From contig NZ_CP013355.1 in the NCBI RefSeq assembly GCF_001543325.1, positions 1,456,001-1,520,000 on the forward strand: DNA of 64,000 nt. Direction: 5' to 3'. Of the stretch, positions 2,256 through 39,071 are shown piece after piece. The translations under genes were made by a program, and so were the position numbers. Origin of the DNA: Lutibacter profundi (lineage in GTDB: Bacteria; Bacteroidota; Bacteroidia; Flavobacteriales; Flavobacteriaceae). Within the stretch, counting starts at the first letter, position 1, and the number at the start of each line of letters is the position of its first letter. The notes under the pieces are model-generated. The model was not told the DNA's origin, made no database searches, and was given only the letters and a program-made list of their open reading frames with translations.

Positions 2256-2376
2256 TTGCGTAAAGGTAGAATACTTTGATAAGGCTCAGCACAAGCTATT
2301 TGTTTTAGCTCTTTTACAGTTGTTTTCACAACTGTAAAAAGCGAGTAGTGATAACCCAATTCGCAGGGTAACGCCC
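2256..2376 (-). ncRNA. Structured flavobacterial intergenic element, copy A
   Basis: A 121-base element that shares its layout with 50364-50484. Read on the minus strand it begins GGGCGTTACCC right at the stop codon of the outer-membrane receptor gene. It contains a perfect hairpin with arms TTTTACAGTTG and CAACTGTAAAA, then a CAAATAGCTTGTGCTGAGC block, and ends near TACCTTTACGC. Copy B keeps the same order with a different hairpin sequence, so pairing rather than bases seems conserved. It resembles the repetitive structured elements common in Flavobacteriia; whether it is Rfam Flavo-1 I cannot check. It could be a 3'-UTR structure or a mobile repeat. Confidence 0.55.
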
Positions 2377-5042
2377 TATAAAATATATTTTATTGAAAGT
2401 AGATAAATTCTTGGCTGAATAAAATACAACGATGTAGTGTTACTATCAGAAATTTCATTATAACTATCTGTATTCATAGAGGTATTATTTGTTAAATTAG
2501 TTACTGAGAGTTTAAATTCCCACTTGCTATCTTTTTGCTGATAATACAAATTAGCATTTAAAAATGAATACGTGTTTTTAACCGTATTTTCATCATTTTT
2601 ATACTTATAATAACTATAATCTGTCGTTAAAATAAAGTTTGTTAGAAATCCTATTTCCATATTTGCAAAAGGCCTATCCGTTGTACTTCCTGTATTTGAA
2701 TACTTTGAAAATGATTTTTGATAGCCTATCTCGAAATTAGGTGCATCTTTAAATTTACTAGCAACACTAACCTGATAATTATGCGAAAGTGTTTTAGATT
2801 TTATTTGCCTATTATTTACAATATTATTAAATATTGAATTATTAACACTTGCCCTTAAATTAGTTTTAAGTTTACTATATGTTTTTCCATATCTAAAAGA
2901 GGCTGAAAATGTTTCATCTGCAAGGTTTGAATTAACTGGAAATGAAACTCTATCTGCACCCAACAATTGAGTGCTATTTTTTATTTCATCAATTTTTTTA
3001 GTGTAGTTTACAGATGCATGAATATTGGTAAATGAAAACATGCTAAAACTAAAATAACTTAGTGAATATTTATGGTACAATGCGTTTTCCAATTCTCTAT
3101 TCCCTTGTGTTAACAACCTATAATTAGATAAAATATAAGCTTCTGCTATTTTGTTAATATCAGGAAATTGTGTAGATATTGAATAGTTAAAACGTAAACT
3201 TTCAGATGATTTAAGCTGTAAACGCGCATATACATCTGGTAATAATTTAATTTTATCTCTTTTAATTTTAGCATCTAGTTGAGTGTCTTTTGTTTGGTAA
3301 TAATGCAAACTCACACCTGGATTAAATGTAAAAATGCCCGATACCATTTTATAATGAACTCCTAAAAATAAATCGGTAAAATTATAATCAACATTATTGT
3401 TTAAAACCGCATTGCTAAAATTTAAAACACTTCCATTTTCCAAATTTTGTGAAATAGTAGAGGTTAAGTTTTGTTTACTTAATAAAGTTCCCAACGTTAA
3501 ATTAATATTGCTTTTTGGAGTTAGTAAATAATAGTAGTCTAATTTAGCATCAAGCCTATTGGTAGTTACTTTTTTATTTTGAATAATATCAATAATGGTT
3601 TCAGAATTATTAGAAGGAATTATTAAAAAAGGCTGTATTGTAACTAAAGAATTGTAAAACGGTTTATCTTTTTCATATTTGTGTTGCAATTCAGCTGAAA
3701 ATATATTTTTATCGTTTATGGTGTAGTACAAATTAAAATTCTGACTTAATGTAACTGGTGTTTCTTCTTTATTTGTGTTAATATCACCACTAATTGTAGA
3801 AGCTACACTATTTAACTCCGTCTGTTTTGAAAGTTTTCCAAAAATATCATAATCAATATGTAAGTTGTTACTCGGGTTGTAGTTAGTACTCAATTTTAAC
3901 ATTCCCAGTGTATTTCCCTGAATAGTTAACGTTCTGTTTTTATCCTCTAAATTTGTGTTATTGTAAATTGTGTTTGATTGTGTTAACATTATTGTTTTAG
4001 AATCATTTACAATAGCAAAACCATTAAAATCTACAGTTTTTTTAGGGGCAAAACTAAAATTTAATGCTCCAAATTTAGAGATTATTTCTTGTGCTCTATT
4101 ATTTTGAGCAGTCATAAACCCTGTTCCTCCAGACGAAACGTTAAAATTAGTTCCCGTACCACTCATTCCACTTCTTAATCCACCTGTAAATCTAAAGTAA
4201 TCTCGCATAGTAAATGGTGCTACACCAATACTATTTACATCTGCCAATACATTGATGCTTTTTTCAGGACTGTAGTAAAATAGCTTAGGTTTTACAATAT
4301 ACTTTTCATCATCACCTAATCCTGTATTTATTTCACCAAACCAGAATCTTTTTTTCCCTTGTTTTAATTTAATGTTAATGGCTATATTATCTTCATTATT
4401 AGTAACATTCCTCATTCCAGCAACCTCATTGTAATTTTTTAGAATTTGAACTTTATCAATTGCTGAAGCTGGTATATTTTGAGTAGCCAATTTGGAATCT
4501 CCATCAAAAAACGCTTTACCTTCAACTAATATTTTTTGAACCTTTTTCCCTTCAACTTCAACTTCTCCATTTTCATCAATATCAACTCCGGGTAATTTTT
4601 TAAGAACATCTCCTAATTTTTTTTCTTTTCCTGAAGTAAATGAATCTACATTATAAACAATAGTATCTCCAACTATTTTTACTGGCATCTCGTAAGTAAT
4701 TTCAACTTCTTTTAATGATTCACTCAACTCTTTTAAAACTATATCTTTTATTAAATCTTTTGAAGAATCCTCAATATTAATATCAATACTCTTTGTATCA
4801 AAACCCAAATAGCTCACTTTTAAAGTATATGCTTGGTTTTGTTCTAAACTTAACTTATAATTTCCTTTTGAATCTGTAATTGAATATGATTGTAAAAATT
4901 TTGTTCCCTTTTTAAAGGCTATTACATTTGCCATTTCTAAAGGGTTTCCTGCTTCACTTTTTATTGTACCTTCAAGTTTTATATTTTGAGCCAAAGCAAT
5001 AAATGGTAGTGTAATTAACCCTAAAATTATTATTTTTCTCAT
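2376..5042 (-). CDS. Outer-membrane beta-barrel receptor (TonB-receptor-like) with carboxypeptidase regulatory-like domain
   Basis: 888 residues. It has a Sec signal peptide (residues 1-18, ending ALAQ), then a CarboxypepD_reg-like beta-sandwich (about 20-105, with PLEMANVIAF and SYLGFDTK). A plug-like region follows (about 115-225; GDTIVYNVDSF, KKLPGVDID, VEGKAFFDG, NYNEVAGM), then a long C-terminal barrel ending in the aromatic-rich YLLSIKYIL. This architecture matches the OMP_b-brl_3 group of TonB-dependent-receptor-like proteins in the outer membrane, whose substrates are usually unknown. It lies 18 bases after the GLPGLI gene at 5061-5921, so the two are probably co-transcribed. A paralogous pair sits at 34850-38278. 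The stop codon overlaps the end of the structured element at 2256-2376. Confidence 0.88.
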   Translation of the reverse strand: MRKIIILGLITLPFIALAQNIKLEGTIKSEAGNPLEMANVIAFKKGTKFLQSYSITDSKGNYKLSLEQNQAYTLKVSYLGFDTKSIDINIEDSSKDLIKDIVLKELSESLKEVEITYEMPVKIVGDTIVYNVDSFTSGKEKKLGDVLKKLPGVDIDENGEVEVEGKKVQKILVEGKAFFDGDSKLATQNIPASAIDKVQILKNYNEVAGMRNVTNNEDNIAINIKLKQGKKRFWFGEINTGLGDDEKYIVKPKLFYYSPEKSINVLADVNSIGVAPFTMRDYFRFTGGLRSGMSGTGTNFNVSSGGTGFMTAQNNRAQEIISKFGALNFSFAPKKTVDFNGFAIVNDSKTIMLTQSNTIYNNTNLEDKNRTLTIQGNTLGMLKLSTNYNPSNNLHIDYDIFGKLSKQTELNSVASTISGDINTNKEETPVTLSQNFNLYYTINDKNIFSAELQHKYEKDKPFYNSLVTIQPFLIIPSNNSETIIDIIQNKKVTTNRLDAKLDYYYLLTPKSNINLTLGTLLSKQNLTSTISQNLENGSVLNFSNAVLNNNVDYNFTDLFLGVHYKMVSGIFTFNPGVSLHYYQTKDTQLDAKIKRDKIKLLPDVYARLQLKSSESLRFNYSISTQFPDINKIAEAYILSNYRLLTQGNRELENALYHKYSLSYFSFSMFSFTNIHASVNYTKKIDEIKNSTQLLGADRVSFPVNSNLADETFSASFRYGKTYSKLKTNLRASVNNSIFNNIVNNRQIKSKTLSHNYQVSVASKFKDAPNFEIGYQKSFSKYSNTGSTTDRPFANMEIGFLTNFILTTDYSYYKYKNDENTVKNTYSFLNANLYYQQKDSKWEFKLSVTNLTNNTSMNTDSYNEISDSNTTSLYFIQPRIYLLSIKYIL

Positions 5043-5060
5043 TTTTAGTTATTAAGTATG

Positions 5061-5921
5061 TTATCCTCTAATTCTAAAATGACCTCCACTACCACTTTTT
5101 TTACGCTCATTTCTAAATCTTTCACGCATTTCTTTTGTTTTATCCTCTACCATTTTATCATATTCTTTTTGTGTAACAACTTTTCCTTTTTTAGGTTCTC
5201 TTATCGTTGATTTCTCTTTCGGATTCATGACTATTTTAGTACATAATATTTGTGTATTTCCATCACTTATTTCTAAAATTAAACCTGGTAAACCCCAATA
5301 CTCTCCCGGACCATGGCTAACAGGAATGTTAAGTGTATACCATGCCGTTACAATGGTTAATTCCATTATGTTTTCTTTTGAATCTTCTTTTTTATCTTGA
5401 TTATTATTTCTTCTTCCAAAGCTAAAATTAGCACTTCTTATAGGCCGTTCAACAACTGTAGTAGCTTTAAAACACAAATTTTCACCAATCATTTTTGTTT
5501 CTTGCTCCATTTTCCAATTATAGCTTATTAGTGTATCTTTAATTAAAAATTTTTTACCACTAAATTCGCTTTCTTTTGCAGATGTTTTGGTTTGTATGTT
5601 TTTATAATAATTTCCTGATGCTCCTCCCATCATCATAAATCGCATTCCTCTACGACTATTTCCTGTTTGATCTAATTTTTTTTCTTCTTTATAGATTGAA
5701 GCTGTTTTATTGAATGTTAAAATATAGGTTTTCTCTAATTGGCTTTTCATTCTTTCTTTGATTCTTTTAATTCTGTCTGCAGGAATTCCGGACCCCGAAA
5801 AATCCATATCAAATGAAGATTTTGTTAGATATGTAGCTTTTCCTTGAAAATCTTGGGCATTGATAGTATTAACAATTAAAAACAGCATTCCTAAAATGCT
5901 TTTATACTTTAATATTCTCAT
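5061..5921 (-). CDS. GLPGLI family exported protein
   Basis: 286 residues with a signal peptide (residues 1-22, cleaved near INAQ). The family-defining GLPGLI motif is present in YWGLPGLILEISDGN around residue 210. A second conserved block, YNWKMEQETKMIGENLCFKA (about 130-150), is shared with the paralogue at 37532-38278. The C-terminus is very basic (NERKKSGSGGHFRIRG). GLPGLI proteins are a Bacteroidota family, often encoded beside outer-membrane receptors; their biochemical role is unknown. A periplasmic or outer-membrane-associated partner of the receptor at 2376-5042 is the natural inference. A TATATTTG promoter element lies at 5950-5957, and the gene is divergent from a two-component system. 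Confidence 0.88.
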   Translation of the reverse strand: MRILKYKSILGMLFLIVNTINAQDFQGKATYLTKSSFDMDFSGSGIPADRIKRIKERMKSQLEKTYILTFNKTASIYKEEKKLDQTGNSRRGMRFMMMGGASGNYYKNIQTKTSAKESEFSGKKFLIKDTLISYNWKMEQETKMIGENLCFKATTVVERPIRSANFSFGRRNNNQDKKEDSKENIMELTIVTAWYTLNIPVSHGPGEYWGLPGLILEISDGNTQILCTKIVMNPKEKSTIREPKKGKVVTQKEYDKMVEDKTKEMRERFRNERKKSGSGGHFRIRG

Positions 5922-31798: not shown

Positions 31799-33394
31799 AT
31801 GAAAATTAATTTATCTATCACTTTTATATTTTTAGTGATAACCTCAACCCTTACTGCTCAAAATTATAAACAGCGATTTAACACTATTGATATACAACAC
31901 TATAAATTAACAATTATTGTTAATGATTCCACCAATAGTATTGATGCTACAGCTCAAATTCAATTAAAATTTAAGAAGCCTGTAACTAAATTTAAACTTG
32001 ATTTCGTTAAAAAAGATAGTGTTAGTAACAAAGGGATGATTATAGATTCTATTTACCAAAACAACATAAAAGTTGCATTTTTACACAAAAACAATTTACT
32101 TACAATTTATCCTAAGCATCCTTTTCCCGGCATAGTGTATACATATACCATTAAGTATAGAGGCATTCCAAAAGATGGGTTAATTATTGGTGAAAACATG
32201 TATGGTGATAGAACTTTTTTTGGAGACAATTGGCCCAATAGAGCGCACAATTGGTTTCCTTGTGTAGATCATCCATCAGATAAAGCAACCATTGAATATA
32301 TTGTTGAGGCTCCTAATCAATATCAGGTTATTGCAAATGGTTTTCAAGTTGAAGAAACCAACATAACGAATACAACAAAACAATATCATTGGCAAACATT
32401 GACTCCTTTACCAACAAAAGTAATGGTAATTGGCATTGCCAAATTTGCCGTTCAAAACCTAGGAGAAACACATAATATACCTGTTTCAACTTGGGTATAT
32501 CCTCAAACAAAAGAACAAGGATTTAATGATTTTTCTAAGGCTAAAAATATACTTAACTTTTTTATTGAAAATATTGGAATATACCCTTTTCAAAAATTAG
32601 CAAATGTACAATCCAAAACACGCTTTGGAGGTATGGAAAATGCCGGAAATATTTTTTATTTTGAAGAAGTTGTAAATGGAAAACAAAATCACAATGATTT
32701 AATTGCTCATGAAATTGCACATCAATGGTTTGGAAATTCAGTTTCAGAGATTGACTGGCCTCATTTATGGCTAAGTGAAGGGTTTGCAACGTATTTTACA
32801 GATTTATTTATTTTAAAAGACAAAGGGGAAAGTGCCTTTTTAGAAAGAATAAAAAATGAACGTAAAACAGTTTTAAATTTTCATCAAAAAAAGCAACTAC
32901 CTGTAATTAACACCAAAACAACAAATTACATGAAGTTATTAAATGCAAATTCCTATCAAAAGGGAGCTTGGGTTTTACATATGCTTAGACATAAATTAGG
33001 TGATACCATTTTTAGAAATGGAATTAAAACTTACTATAAAAAATATAAATTCAGGAATGCTTCAACAACTAATTTTAAAAATGTAATGACCAAAGTTTCT
33101 GGTGAAAATTTAGATATTTTCTTTACGCAATGGCTTTATAAATCTGGTCATCCAATACTAAAAACAAATTGGATTTACTACAATAAAAAAGTTCGATTAA
33201 TTATTGAGCAAACCCAAGAAACTATTTTTCAATTTCCTTTAGATATAGAGCTTACTTATAAAAATGGCACTTCTGAAATTAAAACTATTCAAATTACAAC
33301 TAAAAATGAACCTTTTGTAATTGAAACCAATGGAGATGTAAAAGAATTAAAATTTGATCCAAACAGTTGGTTGTTATTTGAAAAAATTAATTAG
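31799..33394 (+). CDS. M1 family zinc metallopeptidase, exported
   Basis: 531 residues with a signal peptide (residues 1-20, TSTLTAQ). The M1 aminopeptidase core shows FGGMENAGNIFYFEE (the GxMEN substrate motif), the zinc site HEIAHQWFGNS with the distal Glu in WLSEGFATYF, and the Tyr of NSYQKGAWVLHML. At 531 residues it lacks most of the C-terminal helical domain of full PepN, as do other short bacterial M1 enzymes. It probably removes N-terminal residues from peptides in the periplasm or at the surface. It is divergent from clpP with 153 bases between. Confidence 0.92.
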   Translation: MKINLSITFIFLVITSTLTAQNYKQRFNTIDIQHYKLTIIVNDSTNSIDATAQIQLKFKKPVTKFKLDFVKKDSVSNKGMIIDSIYQNNIKVAFLHKNNLLTIYPKHPFPGIVYTYTIKYRGIPKDGLIIGENMYGDRTFFGDNWPNRAHNWFPCVDHPSDKATIEYIVEAPNQYQVIANGFQVEETNITNTTKQYHWQTLTPLPTKVMVIGIAKFAVQNLGETHNIPVSTWVYPQTKEQGFNDFSKAKNILNFFIENIGIYPFQKLANVQSKTRFGGMENAGNIFYFEEVVNGKQNHNDLIAHEIAHQWFGNSVSEIDWPHLWLSEGFATYFTDLFILKDKGESAFLERIKNERKTVLNFHQKKQLPVINTKTTNYMKLLNANSYQKGAWVLHMLRHKLGDTIFRNGIKTYYKKYKFRNASTTNFKNVMTKVSGENLDIFFTQWLYKSGHPILKTNWIYYNKKVRLIIEQTQETIFQFPLDIELTYKNGTSEIKTIQITTKNEPFVIETNGDVKELKFDPNSWLLFEKIN

Positions 33395-33429
33395 CGATTT
33401 TTCAACTAAAAAAGCATACTATTTCTGCC

Positions 33430-33475
33430 TTCGTAGGAATATCAAGACAGTTTTGCAACTTGTTAACGCTATAAC
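33430..33475. repeat. Degenerate short palindromic repeat
   Basis: The gap after the M1 peptidase contains TTTCTGCCTTCGTAGGAAT, a weak palindrome like the short TGCCTTCG..AGGAAT repeats of Flavobacteriia, and then a direct repeat of AACTTGTTA (two copies, 6 bases apart). It is too decayed to assign with certainty. Confidence 0.3.
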
Positions 33476-33494
33476 TTGTTACCTAATTAAATAG

Positions 33495-33502
33495 TACATT
33501 TG
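33495..33502 (+). promoter_or_regulatory. -7 element TACATTTG for the DEAD-box helicase
   Basis: TACATTTG matches TAnnTTTG and lies 15 bases upstream of the ATG at 33518. The upstream TTG at 33500 falls inside this element and was rejected as a start. Confidence 0.5.
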
Positions 33503-33517
33503 CAAAAAAATAGAACA

Positions 33518-34849
33518 ATGACCTTTTCCGATTTAAACTTAAACCGTTTTTTATTAGATGCCTTAGACGAAATGGGCTTCACAACACCTACTCCTATTCA
33601 GGAAAAAGCCTTTTCGGTAATTATGAGTAGTAAAGATATGGTAGGTATTGCACAAACCGGAACTGGTAAAACATTTGCGTATTTATTACCTATTTTAAAA
33701 CAATTAACATTCTCAAAGCAACAACACCCTCGTGTATTAATTATTGTTCCAACACGTGAATTGGTTGTGCAGGTTATTAAAGAAATTGAAAATCTTACTC
33801 CCTATATTAATGTAAGGTTTGCTGGTGTTTATGGAGGAACAAACTTAAACAAGCAAAAGCAATTGGTGTACCAAGGGCAAGATATTATTGTTGCAACTCC
33901 AGGTCGCTTATTAGATTTAGCGTTGGATGGTATTTTAAAACTAAAACACATTCAGAAGTTAGTAATTGATGAAGTTGATGAAATGATGAATCTAGGATTT
34001 AGACCTCAGTTAATTACACTGCTTGATTTGTTGCCTAAAAAACGTCAAAGTATTTTATTCTCCGCAACATTAACAAAAGAAGTAGCTGGTTTATTAGATC
34101 AGTTTTTTAAATCACCTATTAAAATTGAAATTGCAAGTAGCGGAAGCCCGTTAGACACCATTAAACAACTTGCTTATCCTGTTCCTAATTTTTATACAAA
34201 AGTTAATTTTTTAGTTGAATTGTTAAAAGATAAAGCGATTTATACTAAAGTATTAGTATTTGTAAAAAATAAAAAACAAGCCAATATTCTGTTTGAAGAG
34301 TTGGAAGTTTTATTACCTGGAGCAACCAATGTAATACATTCTAATAAAACACAAAATTACCGTTTACGCGCTGTGAAAAACTTTGAAAAAGGGTTTTTTA
34401 ATATATTAATAGCAACCGATATTATTGCACGTGGTTTAGATCTAACCGATGTTAGTCATGTTATTAATTTCAATATTCCTGAAGAACCTGAAAATTATAT
34501 GCATAGAATTGGAAGAACTGGTAGAGCTGAACAAGAAGGAACTGCTATCTCCTTTTTTACTGAAGAAGAAGTTGATTATTTAGGTGAAATTGAACTTTTA
34601 ATGAATACTGAAATTGAAGTGTACGATTTACCTGAAAACATTGAAATTTCTACACAGAAGATTGACGAGGAAATGCCAAAAGTAGCACTAGAAAGTGTTG
34701 GTAAGAAAAAGACAATTACAGAACCAAGTGGCCCTGCTTTTCATGAGAAAAAAGAAAAAAACAAACGTGTTAACTTAGGTGGTTCATACAGAAGAGAAAT
34801 TGCTAAAAAATACAAAAAACCTAAAACTAGAGGACAAAAAAGGAAGTAA
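33518..34849 (+). CDS. DEAD-box ATP-dependent RNA helicase (RhlE-like)
   Basis: 443 residues from the ATG at 33518. It shows the Q motif (FTTPTPIQEKAF), motif I AQTGTGKTFAYLLP, motif Ia VPTREL, motif II as DEVD rather than DEAD (IDEVDEMMNLGF), motif III SATL, and motifs V and VI (ATDIIARGLDL, HRIGRTGRAE). The basic C-terminus (KKYKKPKTRGQKRK) is a typical RNA-binding tail. It unwinds RNA duplexes in ribosome assembly or mRNA decay. Its last 35 bases recur at 38851-38885 with only synonymous differences. The stop codon directly abuts that of the convergent receptor gene. Confidence 0.92.
   Translation: MTFSDLNLNRFLLDALDEMGFTTPTPIQEKAFSVIMSSKDMVGIAQTGTGKTFAYLLPILKQLTFSKQQHPRVLIIVPTRELVVQVIKEIENLTPYINVRFAGVYGGTNLNKQKQLVYQGQDIIVATPGRLLDLALDGILKLKHIQKLVIDEVDEMMNLGFRPQLITLLDLLPKKRQSILFSATLTKEVAGLLDQFFKSPIKIEIASSGSPLDTIKQLAYPVPNFYTKVNFLVELLKDKAIYTKVLVFVKNKKQANILFEELEVLLPGATNVIHSNKTQNYRLRAVKNFEKGFFNILIATDIIARGLDLTDVSHVINFNIPEEPENYMHRIGRTGRAEQEGTAISFFTEEEVDYLGEIELLMNTEIEVYDLPENIEISTQKIDEEMPKVALESVGKKKTITEPSGPAFHEKKEKNKRVNLGGSYRREIAKKYKKPKTRGQKRK
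34815..34849 (+). repeat. Left copy of the 35-base direct repeat (3' end of the helicase gene)
   Basis: These 35 bases, which encode the helicase C-terminus KPKTRGQKRK and the stop, recur at 38851-38885 with 33 of 35 bases identical. The two differences (ACT/ACA and GGA/GGT) are both synonymous. Confidence 0.85.
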
Positions 34850-37522
34850 TTATAATTTGTATGAAACTGTAAATAATACTACACGAGGTAATATATATGT
34901 TTTAACATCTGAGATTAAAAATTCATTTATATTATTTGAACGCTTATAGTTTATGTTTAATAAATTATTAGCCTTAATTTCAAAACCCCAAGCACTATCT
35001 TCTTTTTGATAAAAAAGTGATGTATTTGCAAGTTCATATAAATCTTTTTGAGCTAAAGCTCTGTTTTCAAAAGTATTTTTATAATAATCTGTCTTAAAAA
35101 TAAACCCATTTAAAAAATTGTATTCAATTTCAACAAAAGGCTCTTTTGTAGTGTAATTACTTTTTAAAGTTGAAGATTGATAGTCATTTAACTTAAGATT
35201 GTAACCAATTTTTATATTTGGAGCTTTTTCAAAATTAGTACTTAAACTTGACTTGTAATATTGGCTTTTATTTTTATTTTGAGATAATTTATTGTCTATT
35301 AATTGCCTATAATCAGACATGTCAAATCGTCCAGTAAATCTAATTTTAAACTTTCCATAACGTTTATAAATATCACCTCTAAAATTCCAATTCGTTTCTG
35401 GATGCTCAAATAAAATTGGGGTCAAAAATTTATTTGTGCCCGATAAAATTATCTCGTTTTTTATACTTTCTTTCTTTTTATTATATCCAACACTAGCGCT
35501 CATAATTATGTTTTTATATAATTGAAATTTAGTATACAAAAGCCTAGCTGTATGATAATTTGTGTATTCTAAACTTGAATTTCCCTTATACACTGAATTA
35601 TAATTTAATAATGTATAATTGTTTGTAAACTGATTGGTTTTTCCAAATCTATTTTTTAACGCATAATTAAAATGCAATTTTTCTGATTTATAAAATGAGT
35701 ATTTTGCAGTAATATTGGGTAGTAAAGATAATTTGCTTCTAATGATATTGGTATCTTGATTAATTTCCCAATTATAATTATGAAAATTTCCGCGTGCTTC
35801 AACTACTAGTTTACCCGCCTTAAATTTATAGTGCATTCCAATAAAAACATCATTTAAGGTGTATTTTAAATAATTATCAAAATTGGCAATTTTAAAATCA
35901 TTGATAGTTCCATCTGATAATTCTTGAGTTTCACTTGTTTCATAATTTTCTTTAAAATAGTGATTTCCAAAAGTGGTATTTAATTGACTTTTTGCCCCTA
36001 AAATCCAATAATGTTTGAGTCCTAATTCTAATTTATGCGACTGTCTGTTAATATTTTGTATAATCGTATAATTATCATCTTCTTGTAAAGGTATTAAACC
36101 TTGTAAAAAAGGAGTATCCGTAAACCATTGATTTTTTGGCGTACTCTTTTGATGTTCATAGTTTAAAACAAATGATGTTGTATGTTTAGACGTATATTTT
36201 TTATGCCATTCTACATCTTGTTTTACTAATAAATCTGTTGAGTTTTTGTTTATAATAAAATTTATTTCATTAATATTTATTATTGATTGATTTTCACTTA
36301 CACTTCCTACATCATTATATTTAACCTGAGTATTAACATACAACTCGTTCTTAAAGCTAGGTTTATGTTCAAAACTTATTTTACCAATTGCTAATTTATT
36401 GTTATTAATCTTTTTCTCACTTAATTGTTCTTCAAAAGTATTATCAATAAATAAATATTGCCTTAAACTTTCATTAAATGCTGTGGTTTGTGAATCAGAA
36501 AACAATATATACCCAGAAATAGCTGTATTTTTAGAAATAGGTGTATTTAAATTTAAAGCTACAAATTTATTAATGCTTTTTGTTACATCTTCAAAATTAA
36601 AAAAAGAGCTGAAATTACTATTTGAAGTATTATATACCGAACCATTTGTACTTAATATTTTGTTAATTCCTCCTTCAAAACGAATATAGTCTTTGATTGT
36701 AAAAAAATGATCTCCTAAAGTATTTATATCTCCAATAAAGTTAATTGTTGTTTTAGGACTATAATAAAACAAACCTGTATGTGCTAAATAATAATTTTTA
36801 GTGCCTTTTCCAACTTCAACATCTCCAAAAGTAAATTTCTTTTTATTTTTTTTTAGCTTAATATTCATAGCCATATCTTCGGTTTCAGTTAAACCTTTTA
36901 ACATAGCAACTTCATTATAATTGTCAATTACTTCCACTTCTCCAACAGCATCAGCTGGTATATTTTCAACCGCAAGTTTAGAGTTTCCTCCAAAAAACTT
37001 TTTCCCTTCCACCAACATATGAGTCACTTTTTTTCCTTGTACTGTAACCAACCCATTTTTATCAACTTCTACACCTGGCAACTTATTTAGTACGGCTTTT
37101 AATTTACGTTCATTACCTGTTATAAAAGCTTTTGTTCTATAGGTAATTGTGTCTTCTTTAACTTCAACAGGCAATTGTTGAATAATTACAACTTCATTTA
37201 ATTGTTGAGATGCTTGTTTTAAGATAAAATCTTTTTCGCCACTTTCACTACTATTAACCTCAAAACCTTGAATTGTATATCCTAAAAAACTGGCTTCAAT
37301 AGTGTAGGATTCATTTTTTGTTAACTCTAATTTATACCTACCTTGTTCATCAGTAATTGCAAAAGATAAATTTATAGCACTATTCTGCGGTTTTGCAATT
37401 ACATTAGCATACGTTAATGGGTTTTGTAAACTATCTTTTACAGTACCTTTTAAAACAATAATTTGGGCTTTTAGCCCAAACATTGAAAATAGTAATAAGT
37501 TTAAAGCAATTTTTTTAAGCAT
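34850..37522 (-). CDS. Outer-membrane beta-barrel receptor (TonB-receptor-like), paralogue 2
   Basis: 890 residues with a signal peptide (residues 1-19, FGLKAQ), a carboxypeptidase-regulatory-like domain (about 22-105; NPLTYANVIAKP, EASFLGYTIQGF), a plug-like part (EDTITYRTKAFITG, LNKLPGVEVDKNG, VEGKKFFGGNSKLAVENIPA, NYNEVAMLKGL) and a barrel ending VVLFTVSYKL. It has the same architecture, length and motif order as the gene at 2376-5042. It lies 9 bases after the GLPGLI gene at 37532-38278. The substrate is unknown. It belongs to the repeat-bounded 4-kb segment behind the helicase. Confidence 0.87.
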   Translation of the reverse strand: MLKKIALNLLLFSMFGLKAQIIVLKGTVKDSLQNPLTYANVIAKPQNSAINLSFAITDEQGRYKLELTKNESYTIEASFLGYTIQGFEVNSSESGEKDFILKQASQQLNEVVIIQQLPVEVKEDTITYRTKAFITGNERKLKAVLNKLPGVEVDKNGLVTVQGKKVTHMLVEGKKFFGGNSKLAVENIPADAVGEVEVIDNYNEVAMLKGLTETEDMAMNIKLKKNKKKFTFGDVEVGKGTKNYYLAHTGLFYYSPKTTINFIGDINTLGDHFFTIKDYIRFEGGINKILSTNGSVYNTSNSNFSSFFNFEDVTKSINKFVALNLNTPISKNTAISGYILFSDSQTTAFNESLRQYLFIDNTFEEQLSEKKINNNKLAIGKISFEHKPSFKNELYVNTQVKYNDVGSVSENQSIININEINFIINKNSTDLLVKQDVEWHKKYTSKHTTSFVLNYEHQKSTPKNQWFTDTPFLQGLIPLQEDDNYTIIQNINRQSHKLELGLKHYWILGAKSQLNTTFGNHYFKENYETSETQELSDGTINDFKIANFDNYLKYTLNDVFIGMHYKFKAGKLVVEARGNFHNYNWEINQDTNIIRSKLSLLPNITAKYSFYKSEKLHFNYALKNRFGKTNQFTNNYTLLNYNSVYKGNSSLEYTNYHTARLLYTKFQLYKNIIMSASVGYNKKKESIKNEIILSGTNKFLTPILFEHPETNWNFRGDIYKRYGKFKIRFTGRFDMSDYRQLIDNKLSQNKNKSQYYKSSLSTNFEKAPNIKIGYNLKLNDYQSSTLKSNYTTKEPFVEIEYNFLNGFIFKTDYYKNTFENRALAQKDLYELANTSLFYQKEDSAWGFEIKANNLLNINYKRSNNINEFLISDVKTYILPRVVLFTVSYKL

Positions 37523-37531
37523 TTATGTATT

Positions 37532-38278
37532 TTAATTAGAAATTTTAGTTCTAAAATTCCCCATGGCTTCTTTCCCAATAGCATTAAATTCTTCTTCTGT
37601 TACCAGTTTTCCTTTATTAGGTTTTTTAATTTTAATTTTATTTTTAGGATTTAACATTAATTTTGTCATGGAATATTTAATATTTTGAACTGATAATTCT
37701 ACAATTAAACCAGGTAAACCACCATAACCTATAGGGCCAAACCCAATTGGTATTTGAGATGTGTACCAAGCATCAACTGGATGATTAAAGATCCCTTTAC
37801 TGTTTTCAACAACAAATATTGTTGTTGCTTTATAACATAAATAATTTCCTATTTTTTTAGTTTCATTATGCATCTTCCAATTCAGATTCTCAATAGTATT
37901 TTTAATAATGAACTCTTGTCCAAAAGCTTCCACTTCACGTAACCTCACATTTTGCTTTAGGTCTATGTACCAACTACCTCCACCTCCAAGAAGTAAGGCT
38001 AATCTATAATACCTATTCTCCTCAACTTCAAAATTTAAATTTTCAACAAAAAAAACACTCTCAAGGCCTTTAAATCTTAAAGTATAATTCAACTCCTTAA
38101 ATATATTTTTTAATTCATAGTCCTTATTTGATAAATAAGAATTTATATTCTCATTTGTCTTTGATTTACTTTTATTAACTAATTCCTTACTATAATGAAC
38201 TTCTCCAAAAATTGACTGACTATAAACATTACTAGAAGTAATATATATAAGTACCAAAACAATTACATATTTTTTCAT
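37532..38278 (-). CDS. GLPGLI family exported protein, paralogue 2
   Basis: 248 residues with a signal peptide (residues 1-20, SSNVYSQ). The defining motif is in YGGLPGLIVELSVQN (near residue 185), and NLNWKMHNETKKIGNYLCYK (near 130) parallels the other family member at 5061-5921. It ends NPKNKIKIKKPNKGKLVT and a short tail, shorter than the 286-residue paralogue. It is presumably exported and works with the receptor encoded 9 bases downstream. A hairpin at 38299-38324 separates it from the broken peptide gene upstream. Confidence 0.87.
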   Translation of the reverse strand: MKKYVIVLVLIYITSSNVYSQSIFGEVHYSKELVNKSKSKTNENINSYLSNKDYELKNIFKELNYTLRFKGLESVFFVENLNFEVEENRYYRLALLLGGGGSWYIDLKQNVRLREVEAFGQEFIIKNTIENLNWKMHNETKKIGNYLCYKATTIFVVENSKGIFNHPVDAWYTSQIPIGFGPIGYGGLPGLIVELSVQNIKYSMTKLMLNPKNKIKIKKPNKGKLVTEEEFNAIGKEAMGNFRTKISN

Positions 38279-38298
38279 AATTTTTTATTAATTTTCAA

Positions 38299-38324
38299 AA
38301 GGAGAACTAATTAAAGTTCTCCTT
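38299..38324 (-). promoter_or_regulatory. Intercistronic hairpin between the peptide gene and the GLPGLI gene
   Basis: Perfect 10-base arms AAGGAGAACT and AGTTCTCCTT with a 6-base loop. On the minus strand the stem is not followed by a T-run, so it is more likely an attenuating or mRNA-protecting hairpin than a full terminator. Confidence 0.5.
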
Positions 38325-38344
38325 ATAAACAATATTTATGTTTA

Positions 38345-38545
38345 TTACTCTTGCCAAGCCATACAATCTTCATATGCTTGATTCGCCTCCTCATATGCTT
38401 CTGCATATGAAGCTCCTTATTCTTCTGCCCAATCTCCAACATCCATAGCCATTTGTACACAATTAATTCCTTGTGCTAAGTTCATTGCATTTACAAAAGT
38501 TGTAACTGTAAATACAAATACCATACTTAATATAATTTTTTTCAT
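38345..38545 (-). pseudogene. Small secreted Cys-containing peptide gene with an in-frame stop
   Basis: The 67-codon frame starts at the ATG at 38543-38545 and has a clear signal peptide (MKKIILSMVFVFTVTTFVNA). A TAA at 38417-38419 is codon 43, cutting the product to 42 residues. The frame then stays open for 23 more codons, with acidic/aromatic repeats (GASYAEAYEEANQAYEDC) and the ending MAWQE before the normal stop at 38345-38347. The two Cys (codons 29 and 61) would be separated by the stop. One base change (GAA or CAA to TAA) explains it. A sequencing error or stop readthrough are alternatives. Confidence 0.6.
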
Positions 38546-38850
38546 AATTTTAAAAATTTAATTTGTTTGTATAGAGCAAATTGCTCTTTAATTTTGTAGT
38601 TTCTACGAGGAATGTTACTTTTGCAACAAACTCCTCATTGTTTAGGAAATTCTCTATTTCATAGGCAATACGTTTTAGTTAGACATTTATTTTGAAATAT
38701 CTTTGTTGTAACAACTAAAATTAATGGGGAGTTTTCATAAATACTCCTGCAACTTTTTTTGTAAATATATAAAAAAAAAAAACTTAAATAGTACGGTAAA
38801 ACCGTAAAATTAATATGGTTTTTCCTTACTATTTTGTGGTTTTGTATTTT
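38546..38850. other. Intergenic region upstream of the peptide gene
   Basis: No coding sequence is supported here. It holds a candidate operator at 38573-38587, a plus-strand TACTTTTG at 38616-38623 that leads to no gene, an A-run near 38771, and a second inverted repeat TACGGT-AAA-ACCGTA at 38792-38806. The AT content is very high. It forms the right-hand part of the repeat-bounded segment. Confidence 0.5.
38573..38587. promoter_or_regulatory. Candidate operator palindrome upstream of the peptide gene
   Basis: AGAGCAA-A-TTGCTCT is a perfect 7-base inverted repeat, 28 bases upstream of the peptide gene's ATG. The position and symmetry fit a dimeric repressor site, but no regulator has been tied to it. 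Confidence 0.3.
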
Positions 38851-38885
38851 AAAAACCTAAAACAAGAGGTCAAAAAAGGAAGTAA
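38851..38885 (+). repeat. Right copy of the 35-base direct repeat (orphan helicase C-terminus)
   Basis: These bases still encode KPKTRGQKRK and a TAA in frame, but the preceding sequence does not continue the helicase frame (a stop lies directly upstream). It is best read as the tail of a helicase gene copy left behind by an insertion or exchange. Confidence 0.85.
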
Positions 38886-38902
38886 ATTGGTTAACCTTTA
38901 CA

Positions 38903-38990
38903 ATTACGAGGAGTAATAGTGACGAAGTAATTTGTGACATTATAGTTCCAATCCAAAAGATTGCTTCAGTTTTTACTAAAACTTCGCAAT
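38903..38990. repeat. MITE-like inverted repeat (ATTACGAGG type)
   Basis: An 88-base imperfect inverted repeat: the left arm runs ATTACGAGGAGTAATAGTGA up to GAAGTAAT, and the right arm read backwards is ATTGCGAAGTTTTAGTAAAA up to GAAGCAAT. It belongs to the same kind of short non-coding repeats as 29585-29655. It lies between the orphan helicase end and the trigger factor terminator. Confidence 0.55.
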
Positions 38991-39013
38991 AACAAAATTT
39001 AATAAAATGACAT

Positions 39014-39054
39014 AAAAAAACTCCTTAATGATTTTCATTAAGGAGTTTTTTTAT
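39014..39054 (-). terminator. Intrinsic terminator after tig
   Basis: AAACTCCTTAATGA pairs with TCATTAAGGAGTTT around a short T-rich loop, with A-runs and T-runs on the flanks. It lies 18 bases beyond the trigger factor stop. Confidence 0.85.
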
Positions 39055-39071
39055 ATTGAATTTGAATTACT

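Follow-up and report, generated by a model that had tools for sequence, protein, structure and literature searches.

A probably imported receptor and GLPGLI cassette at the 3' end of a helicase gene in Lutibacter profundi, and a possible peptide-partner system of the Flavobacteriaceae

Two familiar kinds of system stand closest to the locus described here, namely chromosomal hotspots, in which the content between two conserved genes varies, and integrative elements that enter genes at their 3' ends and restore the last codons. The locus is a cassette of about 4 kb in Lutibacter profundi LP1, a bacterium of hydrothermal vents, and lies in a stretch of 64,000 nucleotides (contig NZ_CP013355.1, positions 1,456,001 to 1,520,000), hereafter the window, between a DEAD-box RNA helicase gene and a presumed trigger factor gene. 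Inspection bears out the initial annotation, in which a receptor-like gene, a GLPGLI family gene and a broken peptide gene stand between two copies of a 35-base direct repeat. Like a hotspot, the helicase-trigger factor interval has variable content in the 27 loci of relatives that are seen in full, but it differs in the duplication of the 35-base helicase end at its far border, which is seen in LP1 only. With integrative elements the cassette shares insertion at a stop codon and a short direct repeat; it differs from them in that no integrase is seen, no second occurrence is found, and the far border is apparently imprecise. Gene exchange at chromosomal hotspots is well known, and the insertion is one variant of it.

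The cargo has described counterparts as well. The window's GLPGLI protein passes the cut-offs of both models of its family (TIGR01200 and PF09697), whose function is unassigned. It is like the N-terminal domain of PNGase F-II in its PF22252 match, which lies above the cut-off, and in its Foldseek matches to 7zgn and 4r4z (template modelling (TM) scores of 0.53 and 0.50 of the query), but the two share 13-14% identity, and at 248 residues, against 531-538 for the enzymes, the GLPGLI protein covers only part of them. Bacteriocin-immunity pairs similarly combine a small exported peptide with an adjacent type-matched partner and include partners without a peptide; the unit differs in its acidic peptides, its Sec-like leaders and the TonB-type receptor within it. 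Bacteroidetocins (PMC6671954) are an example of bacteriocins. The best overall explanation, and a rather likely one, combines horizontal import of the unit, recombination at the helicase end and a peptide-partner system.

Evidence for horizontal transfer

The same helicase end is followed by the cassette in Lutibacter sp. GLR166 (G020, locus L178; a metagenome-assembled genome (MAG), identified by its helicase contig), whose receptor is 89% and GLPGLI protein 87-88% identical to those of the window, and whose peptide gene is intact. In MAG-BB-2 (G016, L177) the first 158 bases of the receptor region are present, followed by an adapter-like contig end. The left junction is identical to the base in LP1, G016 and G020, with the stop codons of receptor and helicase directly adjoining each other on opposite strands.

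Between LP1 and G020, synonymous divergence (dS) is 0.44 for the receptor and 0.37 for the GLPGLI gene, as against 1.06 for the helicase, 0.82-1.48 for ten genes of the leucine-biosynthesis (leu) region and 0.73-1.34 for eight genes to the left and right of the site, trigger factor standing at 0.73 (279 codons available); together, the 19 flanking or core genes span 0.73-1.48. Third-position identity is 63% in the helicase (423 codons, the last 15 left out) versus 80% in the receptor (889 codons; z 6.0), and two pieces of non-coding cassette DNA show identities of 93% and 100%. A likelihood change point of divergence falls at -43 from the helicase stop (range -76 to +6 at 2 log-likelihood units), on the repeat. 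G020 is not the nearest relative of LP1, because four other genomes have a lower helicase dS to the window's copy (G016 0.72, G036 0.79, G012 0.91 and G019 0.99, against 1.06), and two of these, G036 and G019, have no cassette at the helicase end. Divergence from G020 is much lower in the cassette than in the surrounding genes, and from this one pair of genomes it is very likely that the transcription unit of peptide, GLPGLI and receptor genes was transferred between Lutibacter lineages while the helicase was not. No match for the receptor or the GLPGLI protein was found in plasmids, nor any relative of the receptor in viral contigs, and carriage by a plasmid or virus was rejected on these grounds.

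In G020 the helicase stands after a GH3 gene and not after the M1 peptidase gene. The reciprocal junction, with the M1 peptidase beside the gene that neighbours GH3 in LP1, is also present in G020, and the arrangement is read as an inversion of about 1 Mb between the two genomes that leaves the cassette at an orthologous place. An assembly chimera is an unlikely source of the differing upstream neighbour, since both reciprocal inversion junctions were found. Window positions 33394-33518, just upstream of the helicase, are a probable inversion breakpoint (together with L329 and L407).

Apart from G020 and the G016 fragment, receptor relatives in the genus reach at most 48% identity over their full length, and those that were mapped lie at other positions; the recurrence of the same cassette at other sites, for which the initial annotation had proposed a search, was not found. 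Derivation of the cassette from LP1's own receptor remnant (G000:C1:2656117-2656353) was also rejected, the two sharing only 44% identity over 79 residues. That region of LP1 (L176, G000:C1:2651000-2661000), at which several other Lutibacter have peptide-GLPGLI arrays, contains this remnant of a receptor 3' end along with a small cysteine peptide of another sort, which we take to be NVEALA-like. A second receptor-GLPGLI pair, with a receptor 35% identical to that of the cassette and no peptide detected, lies on the minus strand of the window at 2376-5921, and matches scoring like this pair occur in most Lutibacter genomes searched.

The helicase end as the probable site of entry

The two copies of the repeat (Table 1), the first being the helicase's final bases, are identical at 33 of 35 positions, and just as first annotated, both mismatches are synonymous changes at third codon positions, each copy reading KPKTRGQKRK followed by a stop. 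The LP1 genome is a single contig of 2,966,978 bases (G000 in the comparisons), obtained by PacBio sequencing at 76x according to PMC5219744. A search of it for the 35-mer, as the initial annotation had proposed, gave two places only among the 40 of 87 candidates scored, both of them the repeat copies. The next best matches in the window score 21/35 on the plus and 23/35 on the minus strand, and the best match in 50 mononucleotide shuffles of the window (plus strand only) scores 24/35; together with the own-genome search, these scores rule out a chance match or a frequent genomic repeat. The open reading frames (ORFs) between the copies are the receptor, the GLPGLI gene, pieces of the peptide gene and overlapping frames, and no integrase-like ORF was seen among those of at least 40 amino acids, which were read by eye with no profile scan of every ORF; the earlier report of a missing integrase stands to that extent.

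The helicase was searched for in 38 genomes of the genus, LP1 included, of which two (G018 and G035) gave no close match, and the comparison drew on 36 loci from 35 other Lutibacter genomes (G012 gave two). Helicase and trigger factor are both visible in 27 of these loci, and no trigger factor was found in the stretch in the other nine. The gap between the two genes is 68-151 bases, an empty site, in 15 of the 27, and 566-8945 bases with various genes in 12. The helicase-trigger factor interval is variable and a site of frequent gene gain, and the empty site is common; several empty spacers have a hairpin adjoining trigger factor that is much like the one in the window. An empty site in relatives had been predicted from the LP1 sequence, and its presence in 15 of 27 loci, along with the change of divergence on the repeat, supports the original proposal of an insertion at, or exchange across, the helicase 3' end. 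In a second collection of 80 named loci, those with trigger factor seen downstream of the helicase are L256 (AG_MB154, gap 144 bases) and others that all fall within L177-L203, the range of the best matches, mostly named Lutibacter; in L223 trigger factor lies upstream.

Beyond its border with the cassette, the right copy of the repeat continues into an ordinary empty-site spacer with a terminator known from relatives. Of its 35 positions, 34 agree with the helicase end of G001 and 33 with the left copy, which would suit another helicase allele without proving one. At both differing sites it has letters found in the helicase ends of other relatives. The initial annotation had taken synonymous divergence as showing that the right copy was once coding sequence; two differences alone are no proof of this, and the continuation into the spacer and its terminator is the better evidence. 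Just inside the right copy stands a promoter-like element with the inner repeat ACGGTAAAACCGT, which has four other copies in the genome. Two of them precede similar lipoprotein-like genes by no more than about 65 bases, and for the other two the distance to the following ORF of at least 80 amino acids is about 560 bases. These four copies share further upstream sequence, and because that sequence is replaced at the cassette by the repeat, the far end of the cassette looks cut.

A sequence of events can be proposed in which imported DNA, taken up for example by natural transformation, would have recombined on the left through the short conserved helicase terminus, and an illegitimate join at its other end would have attached it to the resident helicase gene 35 bases short of the stop codon, so that the end of that gene persists as the right copy. 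The right copy is probably such a relic; the illegitimate nature of the right join could equally go either way. If these events took place, a few dozen bases at the 3' end of a housekeeping gene can be enough to admit a whole transport unit to a conserved site, with no recombinase encoded in the unit and with a scar that can still be read.

Site-specific integration seems a less likely course than recombination of imported DNA across the helicase end. Under it, an integrase-less mobile unit with the helicase end as its attachment core would have been inserted by a recombinase acting in trans, duplicating the core. Such a unit would account for insertion at a 3' end with the last codons restored, for the direct repeat at both borders, for a left junction identical in three genomes and for an exchange boundary on the repeat. 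It is nevertheless unlikely: a second helicase-end copy, at 25 or more of 33 positions, appears in none of the 36 loci (nine being stretches without a visible trigger factor, and both cassette loci ending before the right border), a DNA search of six relatives listed helicase-end matches at helicase genes only (40 candidates scored per genome), no recombinase is seen in the unit, the right border cuts off sequence common to the other promoter-like element copies, and the plasmid and viral searches described above were negative. Insertion in a common ancestor of LP1, G016 and G020, with later homogenisation by recombination within the cassette, has a lower probability again. It agrees with the left junction common to all three genomes to the base and with the orthologous position of the G020 locus once the inversion is allowed for, but the tract boundary would need to hit the repeat by chance, and G036 and G019, no more distant by helicase dS than G020, are without the cassette. 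That the helicase end was duplicated in tandem and a deletion then followed, independently of the cassette, is very improbable even though reading frame and stop are kept in the right copy, as the 35 bases that are left coincide exactly with the far border of the cassette and the differing letters of the right copy occur in other relatives' helicase ends.

Import through the helicase end has several points to its disadvantage. The left exchange tract, of less than about 80 bases, is short for RecA-type recombination, and the dS values come from one genome pair by a simple counting method. The G020 cassette contig stops about 70 bases before the place of the right copy, with the trigger-factor contig of that genome starting inside the gene, and the G016 contig ends in adapter-like sequence before the right border is reached; with the right border missing from the assemblies of all relatives that bear the cassette, the right copy may be older or younger than the transfer. 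Finally, the promoter-like element may simply be shorter at the cassette. In G016:C465 (L093) about the first 19 bases are presumably a Nextera adapter, an artefact in the public assembly.

Peptides and their proposed GLPGLI partners

A set of 59 stretches from Lutibacter and other Flavobacteriaceae, made up of 57 loci plus two segments of the window, contains 127 GLPGLI genes, arranged in runs of up to eight and nearly always beside one receptor. A small exported ORF containing cysteine lies directly upstream of 61 of the 127, versus 5 of 177 other ORFs of at least 150 amino acids in the same stretches, under a rule that selects small ORFs with a hydrophobic leader and a cysteine and thereby builds both traits into the count. 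A few of the 61 peptides are short or have misplaced starts (for example L260, L345 and L349), and the loci were picked for similar receptors and not at random, some of the genomes being close relatives. Three pairs with fewer than two cysteines in the peptide were dropped, and 58 entered a Mantel test. In these 58 peptides the part after residue 20 averages 57 residues, and 56 are net negative, the mean net charge being -8.1; 41 have exactly two cysteines, spaced exactly 32 residues apart in 21.

Similarity between mature peptides of different genomes tracks that between their GLPGLI proteins, with a Mantel r of 0.658 that none of 5000 within-genome partner reshuffles reached (mean 0.20, maximum 0.525), and similar-peptide comparisons chose the matching GLPGLI protein in 27 of 29 cases versus 10.0 expected (some pairs counted both ways). 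The leaders are without such a link, 710 of 2000 reshuffles reaching the observed value. Because peptide and GLPGLI types are paired, a specific partnership between them can be proposed with good confidence.

A hidden Markov model (HMM) built from 24 of the peptides, with at most 20 candidates scored per genome, matches at least 40 of 296 genomes of the order at E 0.01, and many of the weaker matches fall within long ORFs and seem to be chance hits. At E 1e-6 it finds 7 matches in 6 genomes among the candidates scored. One is LP1's interrupted gene and the other six, in five genomes, all lie near GLPGLI genes; two of those genomes (G384 and G256) had given sequences to the model and three (G668, G491 and G212) had not, two of them being new to the data set. 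The model is insensitive, missing G155 despite a peptide found there by the upstream-ORF rule, and its counts do not amount to a survey of the order. No curated cut-off was reached in Pfam, with four peptides, or in NCBIfam, with three of them, and one sub-threshold match was Rop-like.

The window's GLPGLI protein scores 140.9 bits with TIGR01200 (cut-off 50), over model positions 3-228 of 229, the PF09697 cut-off passed being the curated one. Within the motif, L188 and G190 are invariant, and P189 and L191 occur in at least 90% of 90 sequences. Its Foldseek matches at E 0.001 or below are PNGase entries only (7zgn, and PNGF-II in 4r4z/4r4x), and weaker ones, from E 0.003 up, include RseB; the PF22252 score is 28.3 bits (cut-off 27.6), a second GLPGLI protein falling below the cut-off at 16.1. 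In a PDB sequence search the GLPGLI protein had one match, to a kinase at E 0.014, and the receptor none. The AlphaFold model of the receptor has long barrel strands from residue 315, in keeping with the plug and large beta-barrel of TonB-dependent transporters, and its Foldseek matches include Fiu, Cir and FhuA, at E 1.9e-15 to 1.4e-14 but with a query TM score of only 0.3-0.4. Up to E 1, Pfam gave no plug or receptor model for it, only two carboxypeptidase-regulatory-like domains and two sub-threshold matches. Both proteins were under purifying selection over the time that separates them from their G020 counterparts, some of which may precede the interruption of the peptide gene, because the ratio of nonsynonymous to synonymous divergence from G020 is 0.16 for the GLPGLI protein and 0.12 for the receptor.

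A working scheme is that a Sec-exported, acidic, two-cysteine peptide would be bound specifically by the neighbouring GLPGLI protein in the periplasm and would cross the outer membrane through the TonB-type receptor. A role in competition, similar to that of a bacteriocin and its immunity protein, is the leading guess and a tentative one; the pairing of types, the GLPGLI genes without a peptide, and the intact GLPGLI and receptor genes alongside an interrupted peptide gene resemble an immunity-type arrangement. Somewhat unlikely is a function other than competition, in which the peptide would be a secreted scavenger of metal or another ligand, handled by the GLPGLI protein and taken up by the receptor. 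The acidic peptides speak for it, as do the TonB transporters among the fold matches, which are mostly nutrient importers, but the diversified type-by-type pairing and the many peptide-less GLPGLI genes are judged to fit a specificity contest better. Given acidic peptides and a TonB-type receptor, scavenging or signalling is also possible. The anti-phage defence models of PADLOC gave no match up to E 1 for the receptor, the GLPGLI protein or the G020 peptide.

Competition by partnered peptides must also be set against the 66 of 127 GLPGLI genes without a detected peptide and the acidity of the peptides, in which they are unlike most bacteriocins. The wider proposal, plausible if a little short of an even chance, is that the Flavobacteriaceae possess an undescribed set of diversified exported peptides in which every peptide would have a GLPGLI partner to itself and a single TonB-type receptor would be common to all, the pairs moving as modules from genome to genome and acting as a polymorphic competition or recognition system. 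In the literature on GLPGLI, as partly represented in one open-access collection, no account of peptide-GLPGLI pairing was found. GLPGLI proteins being without an assigned function in the families and papers examined, a modular peptide-GLPGLI system, if true, would give them a first one, and a cognate peptide beside the GLPGLI gene makes a direct test of binding, and of the effect on relatives, possible.

Features of the locus and its surroundings

The features of the locus are collected in Table 1. For the genes called trigger factor, M1 peptidase, ClpP, GH3, FabD, leucine biosynthesis and polyprenyl synthase, the names are presumed ones, given on reading the sequences or taken from the initial annotation.

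Table 1. Features at the helicase-trigger factor locus, in window coordinates (pLDDT, predicted local distance difference test).
Feature	Position	Strand	Evidence
DEAD-box RNA helicase gene, insertion target (3' end)	33518..34849	+	Pfam DEAD E 1.7e-46, Helicase_C E 4.4e-31; start is that of the ATG ORF
Left repeat copy, the helicase's last codons	34815..34849	+	Repeat search
TonB-dependent-transporter-like outer-membrane receptor with carboxypeptidase-regulatory-like domain	34850..37522	-	Pfam PF13715 E 5.6e-14; AlphaFold pLDDT 85.4; Foldseek TonB transporters, E from 1.9e-15
GLPGLI family protein with predicted signal helix, proposed peptide partner	37532..38278	-	TIGR01200 E 5.3e-41; PF09697 E 9.8e-16; AlphaFold pLDDT 91.5; Foldseek PNGases 7zgn E 9.6e-7, 4r4z E 1.8e-6
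Small exported two-cysteine peptide gene with in-frame stop inside; intact in G020	38345..38545	-	ORFs; peptide HMM E 1.1e-20, one stop within the match
Promoter-like element	38791..38846	-	Four stronger further copies in the genome; their shared upstream sequence absent here, where the repeat begins
Right repeat copy, read as probable relic of the resident helicase end	38851..38885	+	Repeat search, own-genome search, comparison with relatives' helicase ends
Spacer from helicase-end relic to trigger factor; terminator hairpin at 39012-39054 like those of relatives' empty sites	38886..39071	.	Comparison with relatives

Among the occupied helicase-trigger factor intervals, that of G036 (L096) holds a block of about 9 kb with leucine-biosynthesis-like genes; one border of this block is found in each of G016 (L257) and G012 (L095), and in LP1 the block stands at about 2.467 Mb. 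G012, a MAG, has two versions of the M1 peptidase-helicase region, on contigs C8 and C25 (L095 and L105), and is possibly a mixed bin. Part of the right-hand spacer of the window, 38903-38968, resembles LP1 sequence at 600839 (79%) and 2215165 (82%) and is an intergenic repeat.

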